A stretch of DNA of 45,134 bases from Clostridiales bacterium UBA4717 (GTDB lineage: Bacteria > Bacillota > Clostridia > Oscillospirales > CAG-272). This document shows, piece after piece, positions 25,422-36,137 of the stretch. The notes beneath the pieces are model-generated. The model was given only the letters and a program-made list of their open reading frames with translations. It did no database searches and was not told where the DNA came from. Where the stretch lies: contig DHJP01000162.1 of the NCBI GenBank assembly GCA_002404395.1, forward strand, positions 1-45,134, given 5' to 3'. The position numbers were made by a program, and so were the translations under genes. Numbering within the stretch: position 1 is the first letter of the stretch; each line of letters begins with the position of its first letter.

Positions 25422-28400
25422 TTGAAGCTCAGAATAATCTCGATAATCGCCTTGCTCACACTCTTATTCCAAGCAGTACCGGTTTCCGCCTCAGAGCCGT
25501 CAAAGCTTATCATGATATATGCGGACGAAGACTGCTTTGCCGATTATAACGAAGCGTTTGATACGCTGACAGCACTAGTCGGCAGTGCTCCCGAAAAGCG
25601 CTTCCCCGCGCTTTTTGCGTTTGCGCTTGAGGGAGATTATGCACTATGCGAGAAGCTCAACGCCGCATACGGATTTGACGCTCACTTTTCTGGAAGCTTC
25701 GGCTTGCTTGATTCGGGATACTCGGATTACAAAACGGCAATAGCCTCCGCCGGTGAAATGATGCGGTTGACAGACACCGAGCGCGGGCTTTATACCGGCA
25801 AGGGCGTGACCGTCGCCGTCATCGACAGCGGCTTCGACATATCGCATCCGGTATTTGCAAAGGCTCCGTCAAAGGAGGTGTTGACTCGTGAAGCATTAAG
25901 CAAACTTAACGAGTCCGATACGCTGAATGTCTCGGAGTATGTCTCGCCCGATAATCTTTATGTTAATCCGAAAATACCGTTTGCCTTCAATTATGCCGCA
26001 AATACCGCCGATGTTTCGTCGGAAAGCGACCACGGCACTCATGTCGCCGCAGTGATCGCCGGAAATGATGATACGATCCGGGGCATTGCTCCCGACTGCC
26101 AACTGCTGCTTATGAAAATTTTCGGCGGTGACGATGATAACAACGCCTCCGAGCTTGATCTGGTATCCGCTCTCGAAGACGCAGTATCGCTCGGCGCCGA
26201 CGTCATAAACATGAGTCTCGGGACCTATTCGGGCTATTCCGCGCATGAGCGCACTCCGGAAATGAAAAACATAGTCAAGCGTCTGAATTCAAAAGGTATA
26301 GCGGTAGTGTGCGCCGCAGGCAATGACGGCACAATAGGATATAACAGTATTTTCGGCGCGGCAAATTCGGTAAAATACCCGCTTGCCGAAATAACCGATT
26401 ACGGTACGGTCAACAGTCCGTCCTCTATGACAGACTTTATTTCGGTCGCAAGCGCGCAAAATCGTCTGCTCAATCTGCCTGTGCTGGTCCATACCGCTGA
26501 CGGTCGGCAGATCGCCTTTTCGGACAGCAACGTAAGCCAAGGCGTGACCAAGGTCGATTTTTCCGATTATGTGGGAAAACAGGAATTTGAATATATCTGC
26601 ATACCGGGAGTAGGCAAACGGAGCGATTATGCCGGGCTTGAACTCAGCGGCAAGATCGCGCTGATCGAACGCGGCACGATCACATTTGCCGAAAAAGTAA
26701 AGATCGCTGCGGACTGCGGCGCTGCGGCAGCGATCGTTTACGACAACTCCGACGAAGGCATTTCACTCATGATGTCGCTTGAGGACTCAGCCATTCCCGC
26801 AGTATTCATTTCAAAAGAAGACGGCGAATTTTTGAAAAAAGCCGAAGACAAAAGAGTGGCGGTCGATCCTGCAATAAGGATGACAAAGCCGAATCCGAAC
26901 GCGTTTGCCATGTCCGCTTTCTCATCATGGGGAGTTACCCCCGAGCTTGAACTGAAGCCCGACATTACCGCGGTCGGCGAAAGCATATACTCCGCCGGCA
27001 GAGACTCAAGATATGTTTCGCTCTCCGGAACTTCAATGGCGGCTCCGTTTGTCTCCGGCTTTGCCGCACTGCTTTGCGAATCCTTCGGCGGCACGACGAA
27101 AGATTCGGGGACGACCATCAAAACGGCGCTTATGAATACCGCGACCCCGCTTATCGACAAACGCACCGAAGCCGAGTATTCTCCGCGGCTCCAAGGCGCA
27201 GGGCTTGCAAATATATCCGCGGCGCTTTCACGCAAGCTGAAGCTGACCTCGGAAGACGGCGCGCCCTCGCTCTCGCTCGGCGATAAGCTGAAAAAAAGCA
27301 TGAAATTCGATATAGTGCTTGAAAATATTTCAAACGAGCCGCTTAAGCTCAGGCTTTCCGCAAGCCTGCTCGGCGAAACGGCGACCGAACTCGGAACGAA
27401 AAAAATCAATTTCAACTCGCTCACCGTGAAGCCGCTTGAGCTTTCCGAAGCATACGTCGGCGAAAGCAAGCTCACTCACGGCGGCAGTTTTGATATTACC
27501 CTAGCCGCCGGAAGCTCCGAAACACTGACCGTTTCACTGCGCTTTGACGAAACTGAGCTGTCAAGTGCCGATTTTAAAAACGGATTTTTCATCGACGGCT
27601 ATATCTATGCTGTAAGCACCGATTCGCAAAAGTATGTGCTTCCTTTTACCGGCTTCACCGCTGATTTTGACAAATCACCGTATATTGACGCTTCAATATA
27701 CGATGACGGCGGTCTGCCTTTTCTCGGCGGAACCATGTTGCTCGCATACAACGGCAAGTCCGCCGCCGTGCTCGGTTCGTCAAATCTCAGCGCAAACGCA
27801 CCGATCCTCGACAGCGCGAAAATCGCATTCTCGCCCGACTTTGACGGCAATTTCGACTGTGCCTACATAAAACTGCCGCTTTATCGAAACATTACCGGAT
27901 ATTCGGTCGAAGTGAAAAACGCGTCGGGAGAAACGGTAATGAGATCCTCGGAAAAATCGGAAATACCAAAAAGCGGATACCATACCGTCGTGCTGAAGCT
28001 CTGGGACGGCGGCGACGGCATAAACGACAAGTTCAGGTTTGACGACGGCAATTATACCGTAACGGTAAAGGTGTGGCAGATCGATTCTTCAAAAGCCGAA
28101 AGCATTGAATTTCCTATAGTCGCAGACACCGAGTCGCCGAGTCTCACCTCTTACTCGCTTGAATTTGAAAACGGCAGAATGTATCTGAAAGTCTCCGCAA
28201 ATGATAACCATTTCGTGCGTGAAGCGTTTGTCTATCCCGAACAGGGAGACGAACGGTTCTCCGCCTCGACCGACGACGGCTCTGGCAGCTTCCGGATCGA
28301 CATAAGCGGATACAACGGAAAATATCTGTGGCTTGATATTACCGATTACGCAATGAACTCTGCAACGGAAAAGCTTGAACTTTCGTCGCTCTACCCGCAC

Positions 28401-28523
28401 CTCCCGCTTGATTTTCTTACAAACAGCGGAGTTTCAAGCTGCGCGCCGACCGTCCGAAAATTCGGCGCGTTCGCAGAAGTATTCAACTCAATTACTGCCG
28501 AAAAGGAGTGTAGCTCTAAGTGA
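25422..28523 (+). CDS. Secreted S8 family serine protease (lactocepin-like)
   Basis: Exported subtilisin-family protease of 1033 residues. A signal peptide covers residues 1-23 (LLTLLFQAVPVSAS). Catalytic residues are Asp135 (VIDSGFD), His204 (DHGTHVAA), oxyanion Asn301 (CAAGNDG) and Ser538 (SGTSMAAP). A PA (protease-associated) insert spans about 390-470, as in lactocepin/C5a-peptidase enzymes. The C-terminal 400 residues are beta-rich Fn3-like domains for surface or substrate contact. No LPXTG or S-layer anchor is visible. Start is TTG at 25422, fixed by GGAG 7 nt upstream. It ends in a GTGA overlap with the next protease gene. Confidence 0.93.
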   Translation: MKLRIISIIALLTLLFQAVPVSASEPSKLIMIYADEDCFADYNEAFDTLTALVGSAPEKRFPALFAFALEGDYALCEKLNAAYGFDAHFSGSFGLLDSGYSDYKTAIASAGEMMRLTDTERGLYTGKGVTVAVIDSGFDISHPVFAKAPSKEVLTREALSKLNESDTLNVSEYVSPDNLYVNPKIPFAFNYAANTADVSSESDHGTHVAAVIAGNDDTIRGIAPDCQLLLMKIFGGDDDNNASELDLVSALEDAVSLGADVINMSLGTYSGYSAHERTPEMKNIVKRLNSKGIAVVCAAGNDGTIGYNSIFGAANSVKYPLAEITDYGTVNSPSSMTDFISVASAQNRLLNLPVLVHTADGRQIAFSDSNVSQGVTKVDFSDYVGKQEFEYICIPGVGKRSDYAGLELSGKIALIERGTITFAEKVKIAADCGAAAAIVYDNSDEGISLMMSLEDSAIPAVFISKEDGEFLKKAEDKRVAVDPAIRMTKPNPNAFAMSAFSSWGVTPELELKPDITAVGESIYSAGRDSRYVSLSGTSMAAPFVSGFAALLCESFGGTTKDSGTTIKTALMNTATPLIDKRTEAEYSPRLQGAGLANISAALSRKLKLTSEDGAPSLSLGDKLKKSMKFDIVLENISNEPLKLRLSASLLGETATELGTKKINFNSLTVKPLELSEAYVGESKLTHGGSFDITLAAGSSETLTVSLRFDETELSSADFKNGFFIDGYIYAVSTDSQKYVLPFTGFTADFDKSPYIDASIYDDGGLPFLGGTMLLAYNGKSAAVLGSSNLSANAPILDSAKIAFSPDFDGNFDCAYIKLPLYRNITGYSVEVKNASGETVMRSSEKSEIPKSGYHTVVLKLWDGGDGINDKFRFDDGNYTVTVKVWQIDSSKAESIEFPIVADTESPSLTSYSLEFENGRMYLKVSANDNHFVREAFVYPEQGDERFSASTDDGSGSFRIDISGYNGKYLWLDITDYAMNSATEKLELSSLYPHLPLDFLTNSGVSSCAPTVRKFGAFAEVFNSITAEKECSSK

Positions 28524-31500
28524 AAACACGCAGAATCAAAACGCTCTCGCTTATACTCGCCGCGGTATTTGTATTCTCGCTGATCCCCGCTCCCGTTAAT
28601 GCGGATACCGGGTACGCCGCAAATTCCGCATATATTGTAACGGTCTCCGACACGGCGGCAATTGATGCCGTAACGGCTGAACTAAAAAAAATTCTCCCGG
28701 AAGCGCAGGTAAATTATACATATTCTTCAATGCTTCACGGCTTCTCGGTAACTCTCGGCGCCGATATGCTTCCGACGCTCAGCACTCTCGACGGTGTGCT
28801 TTCGGTGTCGCCCGAAGTCGAATATCAGACACTTGAAGCCGAATTAGATGTGCAGAGCTCGTCGGCGGCAAACGTATCGTCATATATTGCAGATCCGCAC
28901 TTCGGCGAAGGCAGTGTAATTGCAATAATAGACAACGGCTTCAATGTAAAACATGAGCTGTTTACACTCGATGATACCGCAAACGTCAAGCTTACCGAAA
29001 GTGATATTGCCGGTATATATCACTTTACAAACGCACACAGGCAGAGCAGCTTCTTTACCTGGGACAAAACATATGTGAACCGCAAGATTCCCTTTGCCTT
29101 TGATTATATAACCGGCACGTGCGAAGTCAAGACCGCAAGCAACCACGGCACCGCAATGGCGGCTGTCGCCGCGGGAAACGCGCGAGGAAACATAAACCTG
29201 CCGTCGGGCACCGCGCCTTATGCACAGTTACTATTGATGAAAGTATACAGCGAAGCGACCGGCACCGCTCAGACCGGAGCGGTGATAGCCGCGCTTGAGG
29301 ATGCGTATATACTCGGCGCCGACGTAGTAAATCTCAGTCTCGGAAAGCCGTGCGGCTTTTCCGAATCCGGCTATTATGATGAAGCACTTGAAAATACGAT
29401 AAATAAAATGAGCGAACGCGGGATAACCGTGGTATGCTCGGCAGGCAATAATTCGACGCTCGGGGAAGCGTCGGCTTATGACCTTACCGCATCGTATTGG
29501 GAGCCAAACACCGAATTTCCCGATTCGGGCACGGTAAACACCCCCGCAACCTCCGAAAGCGTGATCGCCGCGGCGGCGGCAAATGTTTACAACGGTCAGT
29601 ATCCCGCAGTAAGACTCACGTATAACGGCAGCCTTATCGCATACAGCGATTCAAACAATGACGCAGTACTCGGTTCGCCGCGTAAATATTTCAATGAGAG
29701 CTTCAACGGCAAAACGCTTGAATACGCCGTAGTGCCGGGGCTCGGAAAAGAAGAAGACTACATAAAAGACGGAAACAGGCTTGATCTGCGCGGCAGGGTC
29801 GCGCTTATCGAGCGCGGAGAGATCACTTTTGCGGAAAAGGTAAACAATGCCGAAAAACACGGTGCGGTCGCGGCAATAATTTACGACAACATTGAAGATG
29901 CCGTATCACTGCGCACAAAAATGGTGCTTGACGATTCTGACCTGCCGGCGATCTTTATAAGTAAAGCCGACGGAATGATACTGAAAGATGCCGCCGTGAA
30001 AAAGATATATGTAGAAAGTACTCTTTCGGTCTATTCAAACGCCGGGATCGCACCCAAAAGTACCGAGTTTTCTTCATGGGGTCCGACTCCCACACTGAAA
30101 ATAAAGCCTGAGCTTACCGCGCCAGGTTCGGGGATACGCTCGGCGGCTTCCGACGGCGGCTATGCGTCGATTTCGGGAACCTCGCCGTCTTCGGCATTTA
30201 TTTCGGGACTTGCCGCCGGAATACTTCCGAAGTTAAGCGGACTTTCGGGAACAGAAAAAACGAATACGCTCAAGAATCTGCTGATGAGTTCCGCCGCGAT
30301 AATGACCGACGGCGAAACCCCTTATTCGGTAAACGTACAGGGAGCCGGACTCGTTGATTACAAAAGCGCGGCGCAAGCCGACCTGATCATTACGCACAAC
30401 GGGGTTTCAAAGCTTGAGCTCGGCAACAAGCTTTCAGATTCGTTTGAGCTGTCTTTTGAAGTTGAGAATCTCTCCGGAAAAGCAAAGGAACTTAAGCTCT
30501 CGGTCATGCTCGGAACGCCCGATCTTGAAACGCTGACCTACGAAACGCTCTGCGGCGAAAACGATTATTACTTTGAGCACACCCAAAAAACACTGTATGA
30601 AATACTCGGAAAAAGCAAAACCGATACCGTGTCGTTCATGAAGCCTACGCTCAAGCTTTTTGACAACGCTTCGATAACGCTTGACGGAAACGCAATAAAC
30701 GCGTCAAAAAAACAGTCGTACGGTATAACGCTTAACGGAAAAAGCAAAACGCTGATCAGGTTAAACGTTACGCTTTCCGAAGCAGAGCTTGCGGAATTTG
30801 AAAAACTCTATCCGAACGGAATGTATATTGAGGGATTTATAAAACTTGACGGCGAGCAAAGTTACTCAATGCCTTTTCTCGGATTCAGAGGAGATTTTTA
30901 CAGCAGCTCTCCGTTTGATTCAAGCCTATACGAAACCGCATCGCCGTTCGGAGGCAATTATCTGTACACTGTTTGTCAAAATGACCGTTTTGACTCAACC
31001 GCCGAGCTCGGCACCAACAATATGTACGGATACAATACGCTGTCCATGAGCTTTGACGAAAGGTTGTCGATACTCTCGCCGTTCGGCGACGGTTGCGACG
31101 GCTCGCTGTACGCATCGGTAAGCCTGATACGTAATCTCGCTTCGCTGAAAGCGACCGTGTATGATGAAACAGGTAATGAGTTACATAACACAAATGTGCT
31201 TCGCGGGCTTGCAAAAGCCTATGCGGAACCGACTCTCGGGACCACAAACCGCTATTCGCTGAAGCTTTGGGATTGCAGGAGCGACGAAAACGACAAATAT
31301 GTATACGGCGACGGAAAATATCTCTGTAAGCTCATCGGAACAGACTCTGTCGGAAACACCTTTGAGCAGAGCTTCGATTTCTATGTTGACAGCCGCAAAC
31401 CGGAGCTTGTTTCATATTCGATCCACTCTGAAAACGGCAAAAAGATCCTGTCGCTTACCGTCCGAGATGATATGTATATGCAGGCGGCTTACCTGACGAC

Positions 31501-31693
31501 CGACCGCGGTAAAAAACTCACCCCACTCGAAAGCCATACTTTTTCAAAGGATAACCTCCTCGCCGCCGGCGCCGGCGCCGCTCACACGCTGACATATGAT
31601 ATCACGAATGTCTCTGCTATCTATGTTTACGCCGAGCTGTATGACATCGCGTTCAATTGCAAGACCGTACGAATGAGCGTTACCGGAGGCTGA
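28520..31693 (+). CDS. Second secreted S8 family serine protease
   Basis: Subtilisin-family protease, 1057 residues, paralogous to its upstream neighbour. A signal peptide covers residues 1-28 and an I9-type propeptide about 35-105. Triad residues are present but in altered settings: Asp138 (IIDNGFN), His209 (NHGTAMAA), Asn310 (CSAGNNS), and Ser555 in SGTSPSSAF, where most active members read SGTSMAAP. A PA insert lies at about 400-480 with Fn3-like domains after it. The GTG start overlaps the previous TGA by 4 bp, with GGAG upstream, so the two are translationally coupled. Activity may be specialised or reduced. Confidence 0.9.
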   Translation: MKTRRIKTLSLILAAVFVFSLIPAPVNADTGYAANSAYIVTVSDTAAIDAVTAELKKILPEAQVNYTYSSMLHGFSVTLGADMLPTLSTLDGVLSVSPEVEYQTLEAELDVQSSSAANVSSYIADPHFGEGSVIAIIDNGFNVKHELFTLDDTANVKLTESDIAGIYHFTNAHRQSSFFTWDKTYVNRKIPFAFDYITGTCEVKTASNHGTAMAAVAAGNARGNINLPSGTAPYAQLLLMKVYSEATGTAQTGAVIAALEDAYILGADVVNLSLGKPCGFSESGYYDEALENTINKMSERGITVVCSAGNNSTLGEASAYDLTASYWEPNTEFPDSGTVNTPATSESVIAAAAANVYNGQYPAVRLTYNGSLIAYSDSNNDAVLGSPRKYFNESFNGKTLEYAVVPGLGKEEDYIKDGNRLDLRGRVALIERGEITFAEKVNNAEKHGAVAAIIYDNIEDAVSLRTKMVLDDSDLPAIFISKADGMILKDAAVKKIYVESTLSVYSNAGIAPKSTEFSSWGPTPTLKIKPELTAPGSGIRSAASDGGYASISGTSPSSAFISGLAAGILPKLSGLSGTEKTNTLKNLLMSSAAIMTDGETPYSVNVQGAGLVDYKSAAQADLIITHNGVSKLELGNKLSDSFELSFEVENLSGKAKELKLSVMLGTPDLETLTYETLCGENDYYFEHTQKTLYEILGKSKTDTVSFMKPTLKLFDNASITLDGNAINASKKQSYGITLNGKSKTLIRLNVTLSEAELAEFEKLYPNGMYIEGFIKLDGEQSYSMPFLGFRGDFYSSSPFDSSLYETASPFGGNYLYTVCQNDRFDSTAELGTNNMYGYNTLSMSFDERLSILSPFGDGCDGSLYASVSLIRNLASLKATVYDETGNELHNTNVLRGLAKAYAEPTLGTTNRYSLKLWDCRSDENDKYVYGDGKYLCKLIGTDSVGNTFEQSFDFYVDSRKPELVSYSIHSENGKKILSLTVRDDMYMQAAYLTTDRGKKLTPLESHTFSKDNLLAAGAGAAHTLTYDITNVSAIYVYAELYDIAFNCKTVRMSVTGG

Positions 31694-32562: not shown

Positions 32563-33024
32563 ATGGATAAAACAGATCTTGAAATTCTTGCGTGTCTGAA
32601 AGAAAATGCGCGCATGAAAGCGTCGGATATAAGTAAAAAGATAAATTTGTCGGTCTCCGCAGTAATTGAGCGAATAAAAAAGCTTGAAGCCAACGGCACC
32701 ATTGAACGCTATACGATAACGCTGAATCAGAAAATGCTCGGAAACGAGCTGACCGCGCTTATGGAGGTCAGCCTCGAACATCCGAAGTATTACGATGACT
32801 TCGCAAACATGGTCAGAGAGACCGAAAGTATACAATCCTGCTACTACCTCACGGGGGAATACGATTTTATACTCAAAATATATACCGATTCATCTGAAAG
32901 TCTCGATAAGCTTTACCGCAAGATCAAAAGCGTGCCCGGAGTCCAACTTACCAGAACTCACTTCGTTCTCAAATCAGTCAAAAGCGACCCGATCGATGTA
33001 AATGCGGCGGAAACAAGCGACTGA
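32563..33024 (+). CDS. Lrp/AsnC family transcriptional regulator
   Basis: Feast/famine regulator of 153 residues. The N-terminal winged helix-turn-helix (MDKTDLEILACLKENAR, ISKKINLSVSAVIERIKKLE) is followed by the RAM ligand domain (ALMEVSLEHPKYYDDFANMV, SCYYLTGEYDFILKIYT). Lrp proteins bind amino acids and form octamers. GGGAG lies 7 nt before the ATG. It sits directly upstream of the methionine transporter operon, so control by or of that operon is possible, but the 88-bp gap to the met promoter shows no clear Lrp box. Confidence 0.92.
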   Translation: MDKTDLEILACLKENARMKASDISKKINLSVSAVIERIKKLEANGTIERYTITLNQKMLGNELTALMEVSLEHPKYYDDFANMVRETESIQSCYYLTGEYDFILKIYTDSSESLDKLYRKIKSVPGVQLTRTHFVLKSVKSDPIDVNAAETSD

Positions 33025-33112
33025 ATAACATATAATCGGCACAAATAGGGACATAATACCGCCGTCATTTTTGTGTCAAATATTCAAATCGTATTTTTTT
33101 GTCCGAAATCGG

Positions 33113-33141
33113 TTGACAAGCGCTCATGACAGTGATATAAT
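33113..33141 (+). promoter_or_regulatory. Methionine transporter operon promoter
   Basis: TTGACA at 33113-33118 and TATAAT at 33136-33141 with a 17-bp spacer: a perfect consensus promoter. Transcription should start near 33148, giving a leader of about 360 nt before metQ. Such a strong promoter suits control by attenuation rather than activation. Confidence 0.9.
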
Positions 33142-33180
33142 TACGGCAACAAAGAAAGCGTCATGAAAGGAGAAAGCAAT

Positions 33181-33306
33181 ATGAAAAACGCGGTGGGTAT
33201 CATAATGAATATGATGCTCATGTACATGTGCCGCATGTGCATGTCTTTCCGTATGTCTTTTTCCGGGTTGCTTTCTTACCGTACAGCGAACACTGTCGGT
33301 GCTTGA
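33181..33306 (+). CDS. Methionine-rich leader peptide (putative attenuator)
   Basis: A 41-codon ORF starts with ATG at 33181, 8 nt after a strong AAAGGAG SD. It has nine Met codons, eight of them within codons 9-25 (from MNMMLMYMCRMCM on), plus two Cys codons. It lies between a consensus promoter and an intrinsic terminator (33322-33355), upstream of the methionine ABC transporter genes. This is the layout of an amino-acid leader peptide: ribosome stalling at Met codons when charged Met-tRNA is scarce would favour antitermination. The coding and SD signals are seen; the mechanism is inferred. No SAM riboswitch or T-box consensus was found in the leader. Confidence 0.75.
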   Translation: MKNAVGIIMNMMLMYMCRMCMSFRMSFSGLLSYRTANTVGA

Positions 33307-33321
33307 CACAACGTCAACAGT
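33292..33321 (+). promoter_or_regulatory. Pre-terminator hairpin over the leader stop codon
   Basis: ACTG/CAGT and TTGAC/GTCAA arms form a bipartite hairpin that includes the leader peptide stop codon and ends just before the terminator stem. A ribosome stalled on the Met codons or at the stop would change its folding, so it may be the pause or protector stem of the attenuator. Confidence 0.45.
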
Positions 33322-33355
33322 AAAGGGGAAGCTTCCGCGGGAAGTTTCCCCTTTT
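33322..33355 (+). terminator. Attenuator terminator of the met operon
   Basis: A 15-bp stem with one G-U pair (AAAGGGGAAGCTTCC / GGAAGTTTCCCCTTT), GCG loop and T5 tail. It is positioned 16 nt after the leader peptide stop and before metQ, so it must be bypassed for transporter expression. Confidence 0.88.
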
Positions 33356-33382
33356 TAAATTCTTCTGTTACGGAGGTCTGAA

Positions 33383-33430
33383 ATGACAAATCTGATAAAA
33401 ATAACCAACCTTTACAGCACGCGAATGTGA
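33383..33430 (+). CDS. Second short leader ORF before metQ
   Basis: A 15-codon ORF, MTNLIKITNLYSTRM, with GGAGG exactly 6 nt before its ATG, lies after the attenuator terminator and 80 nt before metQ. The SD is stronger than many real genes here. It ends in a Met codon before TGA. It may be a second regulatory peptide or help load ribosomes on the read-through message. I do not recognise it. Confidence 0.45.
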   Translation: MTNLIKITNLYSTRM

Positions 33431-33510
33431 CCGCTTGCAACCCAAATTATTCGTTTTCAATACACACCTATAAATATTAAAAAATCAACACAACACAAGG
33501 AGAAAAAATC

Positions 33511-34362
33511 ATGAAAAAGCTCGTATCACTTACACTCGCACTGATCATCGCCGTAGGTTCGGCGCTCGCCCTCGCTTCCTGCGGAGGCAAAGATATCACG
33601 ATCGCAATTCCGAACGACACCACAAACGAAGCGCGCGCTCTGCTCTTGCTCGAAGACAAAGGAATAATCACGCTTAAAGAAGGAGCAGGCATCACCGCAA
33701 CCATCCGCGATATTGAAAGCAATCCGAAGAACATCACCTTTAAAGAGGTCGAAGCGGCACAGCTTCCCAACGTACTCAAGGATGTTGACTACGCGGTTAT
33801 CAACTCAAACTATGCAATTGCCGCAGGTATCAACCCGGTCGAATCCGCTCTTGCTACCGAAGGCGCCGCTTCCGCATACAGCAACATAGTTGCAGTTAAG
33901 GAAGGCAATGAAACAAACGACAAGACCAAAGCACTCGTTGCCGCCCTCAAAAGCAAAGAGGTTGCCGATTTTATTACCGAAAAATATGCCGGTGCAGTAG
34001 TAAGCGTTGTTACCGATACCACTGACGGCTACGACAGCACCGTTGATTACGATGCACTTGCAGGAACAGAGATCTCGGTTGCCGCATCTCCCGCGCCTCA
34101 TGCGGAAATTCTCGCGGTCGCAAAGGACATTCTCGCAGAAAAGAATATCACCCTCAAGATCGTTGAATTTACCGATTACGTACAGCCCAACAATGTTGTG
34201 GAAAGCGGTGAGATCGACGCGAACTACTTCCAGCATACCCCGTATCTTGACGACTTCAACGCTCAGAACGGCACTCACATTGTTTCGGCTGCCGCTATTC
34301 ACGTTGAACCGCTCGGAATCTACGGCGGAAAGCAGACTTCACTTGACACCATAAACAAATAA
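33511..34362 (+). CDS. metQ: Methionine-binding lipoprotein MetQ, circularly permuted
   Basis: Substrate-binding lipoprotein of the methionine ABC importer, 283 residues. Signal peptide with lipobox LASC, lipidated Cys24. Residues 29-167 match the normally C-terminal half (IAIPNDTTNEARALLLLE, ENPKN-like NPKNITFKEVEAAQLP, VINSNYA, EKYAGAVV). Residues 188-283 match the normally N-terminal half (SPAPHAEIL, VEFTDYVQPN, GEIDANYFQHTPYLDDF, ending at the SLDTINK hinge segment). Residues 168-187 link the old C- and N-termini. The fold should close into the same two-lobed binding protein. AAGGAG lies 7 nt before the ATG. First gene of the metQ-metN-metI order. Confidence 0.9.
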   Translation: MKKLVSLTLALIIAVGSALALASCGGKDITIAIPNDTTNEARALLLLEDKGIITLKEGAGITATIRDIESNPKNITFKEVEAAQLPNVLKDVDYAVINSNYAIAAGINPVESALATEGAASAYSNIVAVKEGNETNDKTKALVAALKSKEVADFITEKYAGAVVSVVTDTTDGYDSTVDYDALAGTEISVAASPAPHAEILAVAKDILAEKNITLKIVEFTDYVQPNNVVESGEIDANYFQHTPYLDDFNAQNGTHIVSAAAIHVEPLGIYGGKQTSLDTINK

Positions 34363-34422: not shown

Positions 34423-35424
34423 ATGATTGAGATACAGAATCTATCCAAGACCTTCGGCTTTGCAGACGGCACGGTCGACGCGTTAAAAAACGTCAGTCTT
34501 AAGATCAACGACGGAGATATATACGGAATAATCGGAATGAGCGGCGCCGGAAAAAGCACCCTTATCCGCTGTATAAATATGCTTGAGCGGCCGACCGACG
34601 GCAGTGTGCTGATCGACGGCGTTGACATCGGCGCGCTGAGCGAGCGTGAGCTGAGAAATATCCGCCGCAATGTCACAATGATATTTCAAGGTTTCAATCT
34701 GCTGATGCAGCGTAACTGCCTCAGAAATATCTGCTTTCCGCTTGAACTTTCCGGAGTCGGCAAAAAAGAAGCGGAAGCACGTGCGCGTGAATTGCTTGAA
34801 ACCGTAGGGCTTCCCGACAAGGCGGGGGCGTATCCCGCCGAGCTTTCGGGCGGTCAGCAGCAGCGTATTGCAATTGCACGCGCGCTCGCTACAGACCCGA
34901 AGGTGCTTTTATGCGACGAAGCTACCAGCGCCCTTGACCCCAATACCACACATCAGATACTGTCGCTGATCCGTGATATCAACGAAAAGCTCGGAATTAC
35001 CGTAATAATCATCACTCATCAGATGAGCGTGGTTGAAGAAGTCTGCAATCGTGTCGCAATTCTCGACGGCGGCGAAGTAGTCGAAGAAGGTGAAGTCGGT
35101 ACCGTATTTTCCGCGCCCAGATCGGATGCCGCAAAACGCCTTGTCTTTCCGGACGGTGCATCCGAAGTGCTCAATGCAAACGACGGTGAACGCCGCATCA
35201 GAGTGGTTTTCAACGGTGCGCGTACCACCCAGACCCCGGTAATTACGCAAATGGCGATCGACCTCGGAATTGCCGCAAATATTCTTGCTGCATCCACCAG
35301 ATGCATAGGCGACAAAGTGTACGGAAATATGTTGCTCGGGATTCCCGATGACAGCGGCAAGGTATCGGCGGCGATAAAATATCTGAGACAAACGCACGAT
35401 GTCTTAGTCGAAGAAGTGAGGTGA
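34423..35424 (+). CDS. metN: Methionine ABC transporter ATP-binding protein
   Basis: ATPase subunit of the methionine importer, 333 residues from ATG 34423. Walker A GMSGAGKST at 38-46, signature LSGGQQQR, Walker B VLLCDEATSALD, and H-loop ITHQM are intact. The C-terminal NIL domain (from about residue 260, RIRVVFNGARTTQTPVI) is the regulatory methionine-binding module that trans-inhibits transport. An upstream ATG at 34372 would translate the intercistronic hairpin into an Ala-rich extension not expected for MetN, though it alone has an SD-like AAGGA; the 34423 start has none and may rely on coupling. Confidence 0.93.
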   Translation: MIEIQNLSKTFGFADGTVDALKNVSLKINDGDIYGIIGMSGAGKSTLIRCINMLERPTDGSVLIDGVDIGALSERELRNIRRNVTMIFQGFNLLMQRNCLRNICFPLELSGVGKKEAEARARELLETVGLPDKAGAYPAELSGGQQQRIAIARALATDPKVLLCDEATSALDPNTTHQILSLIRDINEKLGITVIIITHQMSVVEEVCNRVAILDGGEVVEEGEVGTVFSAPRSDAAKRLVFPDGASEVLNANDGERRIRVVFNGARTTQTPVITQMAIDLGIAANILAASTRCIGDKVYGNMLLGIPDDSGKVSAAIKYLRQTHDVLVEEVR

Positions 35425-35429
35425 GTCGG

Positions 35430-36137
35430 ATGTTCAATAATATTTTTTCCGACGCGGCGATCGCGGAGGCAATTGATATATTTGTAAGCGAGTTTCCGCT
35501 TGCAATATGGGAAACGCTGTACGTCACGCTTATATCTACCGCTTTTGCCACCCTGCTCGGGCTTCCGCTCGGAGTTTTGCTCGTAGCGGGCGAAAAGAGC
35601 GGAGTTCATCCTCTGCCGGCGTGGCTTATGCACATAATTAATATCGTTATCAACCTGCTTCGTTCTATACCGTTCCTCATACTTATGATACTCGTTTTCC
35701 CGCTTTCAAGGCTTATCGTGGGAACCGCAGTCGGAACGGTAGCATCTATAGTTCCGCTTGTTATTGCCGCGTTTCCTTTTGTCGCCAGACTTGTTGAAGG
35801 AAGTCTGCGCGAAGTTAACCCCAACATAATCGAAGCGGCGCAAAGCATGGGTGCGTCCCCCTTTCAGATAATCACAAAGGTCATGCTTCCCGAAAGTGTG
35901 CCGTCTCTTATTTCAAACGCCACCATCGCTGTGATAACCATACTCGGATACAGCGCCATGAGCGGAATCATCGGCGGCGGCGGTCTCGGAAAGATCGCGA
36001 TCAACTACGGATACTACCGATACAAGTACCTTGTAATGCTTGCGGCGGTCATTCTGCTTATCGTGCTCGTGCTGATATTCCAAGGACTCGGAACAAAGCT
36101 TTCGATAAGATCGGATAAACGGCTCAAAAAGAAATAA
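35430..36137 (+). CDS. metI: Methionine ABC transporter permease
   Basis: Inner-membrane permease of the MetNI importer, 235 residues with about five helices. The transmembrane core starts ETLYVTLISTAFATLLGLPLGVLL; the EAA loop that docks the ATPase reads EAAQSMGASPFQIITKVMLPES. GAGG lies 8 nt before the ATG at 35430, inside the end of metN, so the two are coupled. A long 140-nt tail and a strong terminator at 36278 follow. Order metQ-metN-metI differs from the metN-metI-metQ order of Escherichia coli. Confidence 0.94.
   Translation: MFNNIFSDAAIAEAIDIFVSEFPLAIWETLYVTLISTAFATLLGLPLGVLLVAGEKSGVHPLPAWLMHIINIVINLLRSIPFLILMILVFPLSRLIVGTAVGTVASIVPLVIAAFPFVARLVEGSLREVNPNIIEAAQSMGASPFQIITKVMLPESVPSLISNATIAVITILGYSAMSGIIGGGGLGKIAINYGYYRYKYLVMLAAVILLIVLVLIFQGLGTKLSIRSDKRLKKK

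Follow-up and report, generated by a model that had tools for sequence, protein, structure and literature searches.

The locus studied here raises the question of how a clostridial methionine importer operon, metQNI, is controlled. Methionine genes of Bacillota are controlled by premature termination through the SAM riboswitch (RF00162) and the T-box (RF00230), and an earlier note on this DNA had claimed a different solution, namely attenuation by a methionine-rich leader peptide. We followed this claim in the window, that is, the whole stretch of 45,134 nucleotides analysed, which comes from a 2.0-Mb draft genome (Clostridiales bacterium UBA4717), and in its relatives. Our answer is that the small ORF, hereafter leader 1, is very probably a ribosome-mediated transcription attenuator that reads the charging of elongator tRNA-Met (probably also of tRNA-Cys) and controls metQNI. 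What the computation shows directly is its anatomy, its conservation before methionine genes, the presence of terminators and the fact that the two alternative pairings co-vary.

Anatomy of the leader region

The promoter, the leader ORFs, the terminator and metQNI all lie on the plus strand. The promoter, TTGACA-17-TATAAT at 33113-33141, agrees with the sigma-A consensus at 12 of 12 positions and is thus perfect, as claimed. The 41-codon leader 1 (33181-33306) encodes the Met/Cys-rich peptide MKNAVGIIMNMMLMYMCRMCMSFRMSFSGLLSYRTANTVGA, and its SD sequence AGGAG (33168-33172) lies within pairing region 1 (33169-33186). The nine methionine codons counted earlier are present, being the start codon plus eight at codons 9-25, a tract of 17 codons; the chance of such a tract is 5.5e-9 given a methionine frequency of 2.7%, which was assumed rather than measured in this genome, and uncorrected for the number of places searched. 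Two features had escaped the first description: two cysteine codons within the methionine tract (MCRMCM) and, between the terminator and metQ, another small ORF at 33383-33430.

Segment 2, TCCGGGTTGCTTTCTTA (33262-33278), has two alternative partners, region 1 (giving the protector) and the 5' arm of the terminator at 33324-33340 (giving the antiterminator); this arm constitutes region 3. The intrinsic terminator (33322-33356) has a 15-bp stem (33322-33354) with A-U pairs and a short U run, and its 12-bp core scores -19.6 kcal/mol in the scripted scoring. Both the 15-bp stem and a 5-bp hairpin over the leader 1 stop codon (33303-33317), which had been described as well, appear in the minimum free energy fold, and the leader folds better than 200 of 200 shuffles (z -6.3). 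A consensus terminator scan of the window listed none at 33322-33356; we attribute this miss to the long stem, which absorbs part of the T run. With five T after a G+C stem, the element would rank as a moderate terminator on paper.

Downstream follow metQ (33511-34362), encoding the methionine-binding lipoprotein, metN (34423-35424), encoding the ABC transporter ATPase (TIGR02314, E 9.7e-106), and metI (35421-36137), encoding the permease (NF008049, E 5.1e-60); the bit scores of the latter two are under the curated cut-offs. The encoded MetQ is circularly permuted. Thus, its residues 187-282 align with the N-terminal half of MetQ-like lipoproteins of solved structure (PDB 4ib2, residues 12-107) and its residues 30-164 with the C-terminal half (residues 111-249). 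The family holds permuted and ordinary forms side by side; the window has its genes in the order metQ-N-I, and the ordinary operons that we inspected have metN-I-Q. Among the papers listed in our literature search, none dealt with such a permutation of MetQ by title.

Two neighbouring features deserve mention. An Lrp/AsnC-family regulator gene (32563-33024) sits directly 5' of the promoter region, by eye also at the same-genus loci L002-L004, and its product could provide a further level of control. Further upstream, two adjacent large ORFs (25422-31693; 1033 and 1057 residues) appear by eye to encode paralogous subtilisin-type secreted proteases.

Leader 1 among relatives

A MetQ search of 395 family genomes and of named genomes (best 80 of 584 matches) yielded 92 permuted metQ loci, reduced to 89 by dropping those with fewer than 200 bases upstream or with identical upstreams. 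A Met/Cys-rich leader with an SD sequence was present at 40 of these 89, where one locus cut off at metQ (L048) is wrongly counted as leaderless. Together with loci found through the second ORF, the collection came to 45 leaders (the window and 44 other loci, the SD being a selection criterion) with 43 distinct peptides; the leader ORF is thus kept in relatives, a comparison that the earlier note had proposed. Permuted metQ follows 41 of the 45, and metY or a cysK-like gene follows four. After the start codon, methionine makes up 21% of the residues and cysteine 8%; in the core of 32 aligned leaders M14, M16, M19 and C20 are nearly invariant, while length and C-terminus vary between loci.

The distribution is patchy. 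Leader 1 is absent from about half of the permuted metQ loci, including one of four in the genus of the window: the window, L003 and L004 have it; L002 lacks it and retains a promoter. Leader 1 also stands ahead of metQ at L156, a locus of Oscillibacter sp. ER4. The direct upstreams of canonical metQ (41 + 4 loci) contained no convincing leader. In several canonical metQ operons metN comes first, and there a hidden Markov model (HMM) of the leader did detect leaders, ahead of metN.

This HMM, in which the window leader scores E 3.9e-12 while being itself part of the model, gave 19 matches at E ≤ 0.05 in 146 family genomes. One was a chance match and 18 lay, by coordinates and context, ahead of metQ (9), metY (4), metN (4) or a cysK-like gene (1); most were sequences already in the model. 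Four family matches from outside the model reached E ≤ 1e-3, one ahead of metY and three ahead of metN of canonical metNIQ operons, and searches of the order (295 genomes) and the class (245 genomes) added six more, five at metY and one at metQ. All ten matches from outside the models at this threshold, some of them in other families and orders, therefore precede metN, metQ or metY. A weaker match (L246, E 0.0046) is also ahead of metN; five further matches, with E values of 0.004-0.008, are due to chance. L236, L245, L247, L248, L253 and L254 were rejected as chance from their context. The reach of the model is limited, with matches at E ≤ 0.01 in 9 of 295 and 6 of 245 genomes, chance ones included.

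The names metY, metN and metQ in relatives were given mostly by eye. Where checked, NCBIfam models back them for metY (L255, L107), metN (L232, L238, L239, L246; bit scores under the curated cut-off) and metQ (L217), and likewise for metK (L101). The cysK-like gene of L106/L230, an 82-codon ORF named by eye, has no NCBIfam match and is probably broken, and at L201 metY carries, by eye, an early stop. At seven metY promoters (L104, L114, L115, L116, L199, L203, L204) GTAGG/CCTAC repeats stand near the -35 element and after the -10 element (for example CCAACCTA..GGTAGG); such repeats were not seen in the promoter of the window. We take them to be, perhaps, a Rrf2/CymR-type operator.

Terminators and alternative pairings

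A terminator with dG ≤ -12 follows 41 of the 45 leaders, 15 to 49 nt past the stop codon, in the scripted search, compared with 2 of 90 shuffles. By eye, one is visible also at L049, L044 and L047, and a weak one at L038. Near the end of the ORF, segment 2 (at many loci, by eye, TCCGATnTGcTTTCTG or CCGATnTGTTCTCCA) has two possible partners, the SD region of the same leader (1:2) and the 5' arm and loop of the terminator (2:3). For the pairing test, L049 was left out as having no scripted terminator, as were the duplicate peptides L033 and L176; the contig of L100 has no region 1, so that its 1:2 value was counted as p = 1 and the locus was dropped from the two tests that follow. Across these 42 leaders both duplexes are stronger than in dinucleotide shuffles, the combined p values being 1e-9 (1:2) and 2e-8 (2:3), both of which ignore shared ancestry; individually, 14 and 11 of the 42, respectively, reach p ≤ 0.05. 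The two uses of segment 2 overlap by at least 5 nt in 35 of the 42.

We regard co-variation as the stronger test of these pairings. In 41 leaders, each segment was scored against its own partner versus the partners of other leaders; the own partner was favoured, with z -6.4 for the 1:2 duplex and -5.9 for the 2:3 duplex. Thinning the set to 37 leaders, a partial control for shared ancestry, left these values nearly unchanged. The controls, a 1:3 pairing and reversed segments, stayed between -1.5 and +0.5. Hence the alternative pairings that the earlier note had suggested looking for exist and co-vary. In the window, the duplexes amount to -15.1 (1:2), -17.4 (2:3) and -19.6 kcal/mol (3:4).

Folding of partial transcripts indicates what a stalled ribosome could do. 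In the window, placing a ribosome-sized block in the middle of the tract makes the terminator arm pair with segment 2 at 0.80 instead of 0.02. Of 41 leaders, 35 show such a rise (median 0.29 to 0.66; Wilcoxon p 8e-7), and stalling brings none in the other six; in 13 of 41 the pairing is at least 0.5 without any ribosome. Once the whole terminator is present and no ribosome is placed, the terminator forms in most leaders (median 0.82). Since the full-length fold favours the terminator, antitermination would have to be kinetic, that is, decided during RNA synthesis.

Proposed mechanism of leader 1

From these data we infer translation of leader 1, stalling, kinetic pre-emption of the terminator and a response to methionine, as follows. 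If the leader is not translated, or once the ribosome has reached the stop codon, segment 2 would pair with the SD region of the leader, the terminator would form and transcription would end. When methionine (or cysteine) is short, the ribosome would halt in the tract, which separates region 1 from segment 2; the latter would then take the emerging terminator 5' arm, the terminator would be pre-empted and metQNI would be transcribed.

The 3' end of segment 2 in the window lies about 28 nt short of the last base of the stop codon, outside the cover of a ribosome at the stop, and segment 2 likewise ends upstream of that cover in many other leaders. Completed translation would lead to termination by letting segment 2 return to the SD region once the ribosome has passed it, and not by covering segment 2 as happens in trp. 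This return would, in addition, keep down the number of later translation rounds on the leader. The protector is thus one that masks the ribosome site of the leader itself.

Methionine is an awkward amino acid for attenuator logic, because its shortage also limits initiation: the charging of initiator tRNA would fall too, and this would work against translation of the leader. The long methionine tracts therefore pose the question of how the sensor acts before initiation fails. In front of the uptake and synthesis genes of gut-type Clostridia, it is probably the ribosome itself that reports methionine shortage.

Alternative readings of leader 1

The cysteine codons require that the original claim of leader-peptide attenuation, which had referred to methionine alone, be amended; what it said of the mechanism is supported by the conserved ORF and the co-varying pairings. 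They also open a different reading, whereby leader 1 is mainly a cysteine or general sulfur sensor and stalling at the cysteine codons within the methionine tract sets the switch. The 8% share of cysteine, the nearly invariant C20 and the presence of the element ahead of metY and a cysK-like gene would suit this reading, as would the cysteine leaders described in Actinobacteria (PMC1262725). However, methionine outnumbers cysteine 2.6 to 1 in the leaders and the window leader has two cysteines; L146 has none and L149, L160 and L166 have one each, alongside 9-10 methionines; and 41 of the 45 leaders precede a methionine importer, although partly since metQ was the search query. We therefore consider a mainly cysteine-directed switch unlikely.

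A more conventional reading, that a known riboswitch or T-box has been missed and the ORF is incidental, draws on the abundance of both classes: SAM riboswitches occur in 81 of 98 family genomes, and the present genome has eight T-box matches, four of them over the cut-off. Yet neither the window nor any of 20 metQ loci (17 with leader 1) gave an Rfam match at gathering score, a permissive scan of 33000-33560 returned one chance snoRNA match, and the single SAM riboswitch match of this genome precedes metK. With no covariance model above chance in the leader, the observation that neither element is visible holds, and this reading, which we regard as most improbable, is refuted at the sensitivity of Rfam. 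It is also very improbable that the product of the ORF is a small protein with a function of its own, such as a membrane or metal-binding protein, and that the terminator is an ordinary boundary. Its Met/Cys pattern is indeed conserved, and M-C-x-M-C-M could hold copper; against this stand the terminator soon after the stop codon, the co-varying alternative pairings and the variable length and C-terminus, and the few leader peptides tried had no Pfam or NCBIfam match. Leader 1 as an attenuator thus remains our preferred reading.

Where leader 1 is lacking, another control may take its place. A TATAGA..TCTATA palindrome occurs in eight leaderless permuted metQ loci (L006, L008, L041, L051, L052, L098, L138, L143) and in none of 40 leader loci, and the operon may therefore exchange one methionine-responsive control for another. 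The palindrome resembles the streptococcal LysR-type MET-box. At L006, the end of a LysR-like gene was seen upstream by eye.

A second leader ORF

The small ORF between the terminator and metQ, leader 2 (33383-33430), has 15 codons, encodes MTNLIKITNLYSTRM and is preceded by the SD sequence GGAGG (33372-33376). It ends N-L-Y-S-T-R(CGA)-M-stop, the closing CGA-ATG pair occupying 33422-33427 and TGA completing the frame at 33430. A small ORF with an in-frame CGA-ATG end is found within 330 nt after 22 of the 45 leaders, the window included and one of the 22 (L047) being doubtful. The usual motif is N-x-x-x-x-R-M, its commonest form ..FEKLVRANFRFGRM(C).

Searched genome-wide with the pattern, 98 genomes of the family yielded 14 places (in 13 genomes) and 245 genomes of the order yielded 23 (in 23 genomes), two places being common to both sets; the reversed pattern had no match in the same family and order genomes. 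By context, judged mostly by eye, 33 of the 35 distinct places precede metY (27), metQ (5) or a cysK-like gene (1). At L215 and L216 leader 2 stands before another gene, which is not metY, metQ or cysK; the 54-codon ORF tested there had no NCBIfam match. Extending the search to the phylum, with any arginine codon, gave one match in 299 genomes, out of frame inside a larger ORF and hence rejected, and the reversed control also gave one.

The conservation is at the level of the peptide and, at one position, of the codon. Asparagine stands six residues before the methionine in 39 of 46 instances in which CGAATGT was required. In a different set of 46 motif-type instances, where any arginine codon was allowed but many loci had been fetched with the CGA pattern, the last arginine is CGA in all 46, while the adjacent arginine uses six codons, CGA 11 times. 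The fair tests of CGA are thus the any-arginine search of 98 genomes and the metQ loci. In the former, all 14 leader-like matches are CGA, and the two others (L219, with a serine codon, and L220, with AGG) are short frames lacking leader anatomy; in the latter, all 12 matches classed as leader 2 are CGA and four non-CGA matches lie in leader-1-type ORFs. One of these four, an AGA-ATG ORF at L135, is ambiguous between the two types. The codon after the methionine is TGA (15), TGT (15), TGC (13), TAA (2) or TGG (1), and at L252 glutamine follows. At L249, a metQ operon with leader 1, leader 2 ends CGA-ACG-TGA, with threonine in place of methionine.

Most likely, leader 2 serves the transcript that it shares with leader 1 as another checkpoint dependent on translation. 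The likeliest form of it, in our judgement from these sequences, would be a nascent-chain arrest peptide with a logic like that of TnaC and SpeFL, predicted to stall at the terminal Arg(CGA)-Met in response to methionine, SAM or cysteine and to act via Rho or downstream initiation; we advance this tentatively and with nearly as much belief as doubt. It would account for the synonymous drift around a conserved peptide, with N at -6 and variable adjacent arginine codons beside the constant last CGA, and for the 33 of 35 places ahead of metY, metQ or a cysK-like gene. Against it, no terminator was seen after leader 2, the bias of C over G downstream is weak (0.185 versus 0.129; C exceeds G in 29 of 41), co-variation with the surroundings is weak as well (z -2.2 and -2.7 at most), and the CGA-ACG end at one locus and the ambiguous AGA-ATG ORF depart from the rule. 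Pairing of leader 2 with the downstream SD (z -2.2) was rejected. A permissive RNA-family scan of 20 loci, most with leader 2, returned three tRNAs and two sub-threshold matches.

Implications and comparison with known systems

Taken together, the two leaders could form a two-stage, ribosome-based sensor of sulfur amino acids. Leader 1 would read Met/Cys-tRNA charging through the terminator; leader 2, whose motif is N-x-x-x-x-R-M with CGA as its obligatory codon, would represent a novel class of regulatory nascent peptide, sensing methionine, SAM or cysteine and gating metY and metQ. We regard this composite as possible, yet doubt it somewhat more than we believe it. The mRNA of plant cystathionine gamma-synthase undergoes a SAM-induced arrest, and the two-stage sensor would, if true, be its bacterial counterpart in logic. 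With leader 1, Clostridia would have a recurrent switch of this kind over methionine uptake and synthesis, in a group that also has riboswitches and T-boxes; leader 2, in which one codon is invariant (CGA before AUG), may prove an arrest peptide of a new type.

In the enteric attenuators of the trp, his, leu and thr type, a leader ORF rich in the amino acid of the operon is combined with protector, antiterminator and terminator pairings; a modelling study of these ribosome-mediated attenuators reportedly exists. Leader 1 has the same kind of amino-acid-rich ORF and the same alternative pairings. Unlike them, it codes for methionine together with cysteine, its protector pairs with the leader's own SD region, and it occurs in Clostridia on several methionine operons, often with a second leader ORF after it.

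The closest precedent is the metL leader before metNIQ of Streptomyces lividans, a Met/Cys peptide (MSTTSDRTPATEATTTPGARCMCRRMCAF) for which an attenuator was proposed from RNA-seq (PMC8079986). It is the one prior prediction of methionine leader attenuation in the literature found, and it amends the suggestion that a Met-coded leader may be undescribed in Bacillota, which stands in so far as the open-licence papers listed gave no description of a methionine leader or attenuator there, nor of metY leaders. The metL leader is described as leaderless, without a typical terminator, with three methionine codons and at one locus (PMC8079986), whereas leader 1 is SD-led, has a terminator and co-varying pairings, and is found at dozens of loci.

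Among Bacillota, neither RF00162 nor RF00230 is matched by the leaders 1 scanned. A Leu-rich ilv attenuator is reportedly present in Staphylococcus aureus. Histidine leader peptides of Firmicutes have been described for hisS/hisZ (PMC2965389). Both, as reported, are likewise amino-acid leaders of Bacillota in place of T-boxes, but they serve other amino acids and single operons. Leader 1 and the polycysteine leaders of actinobacterial cys operons have in common a small ORF with cysteine codons that precedes genes for sulfur amino acids; in the actinobacterial leaders the cysteine run lies at the stop codon and no terminator was found (PMC1262725).

Leader 2 invites a different comparison. For its letters the open-licence literature held no paper that we could find. 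The arrest peptides TnaC and SpeFL carry their conserved motif at the very end and are not known to have an intrinsic terminator after it; leader 2 differs from them in the motif and shares the terminal position and the lack of a visible intrinsic terminator downstream. By comparison across loci, the reading of leader 1 as a Met/Cys attenuator is well supported, and the leader 2 attached to it may be the more novel element.
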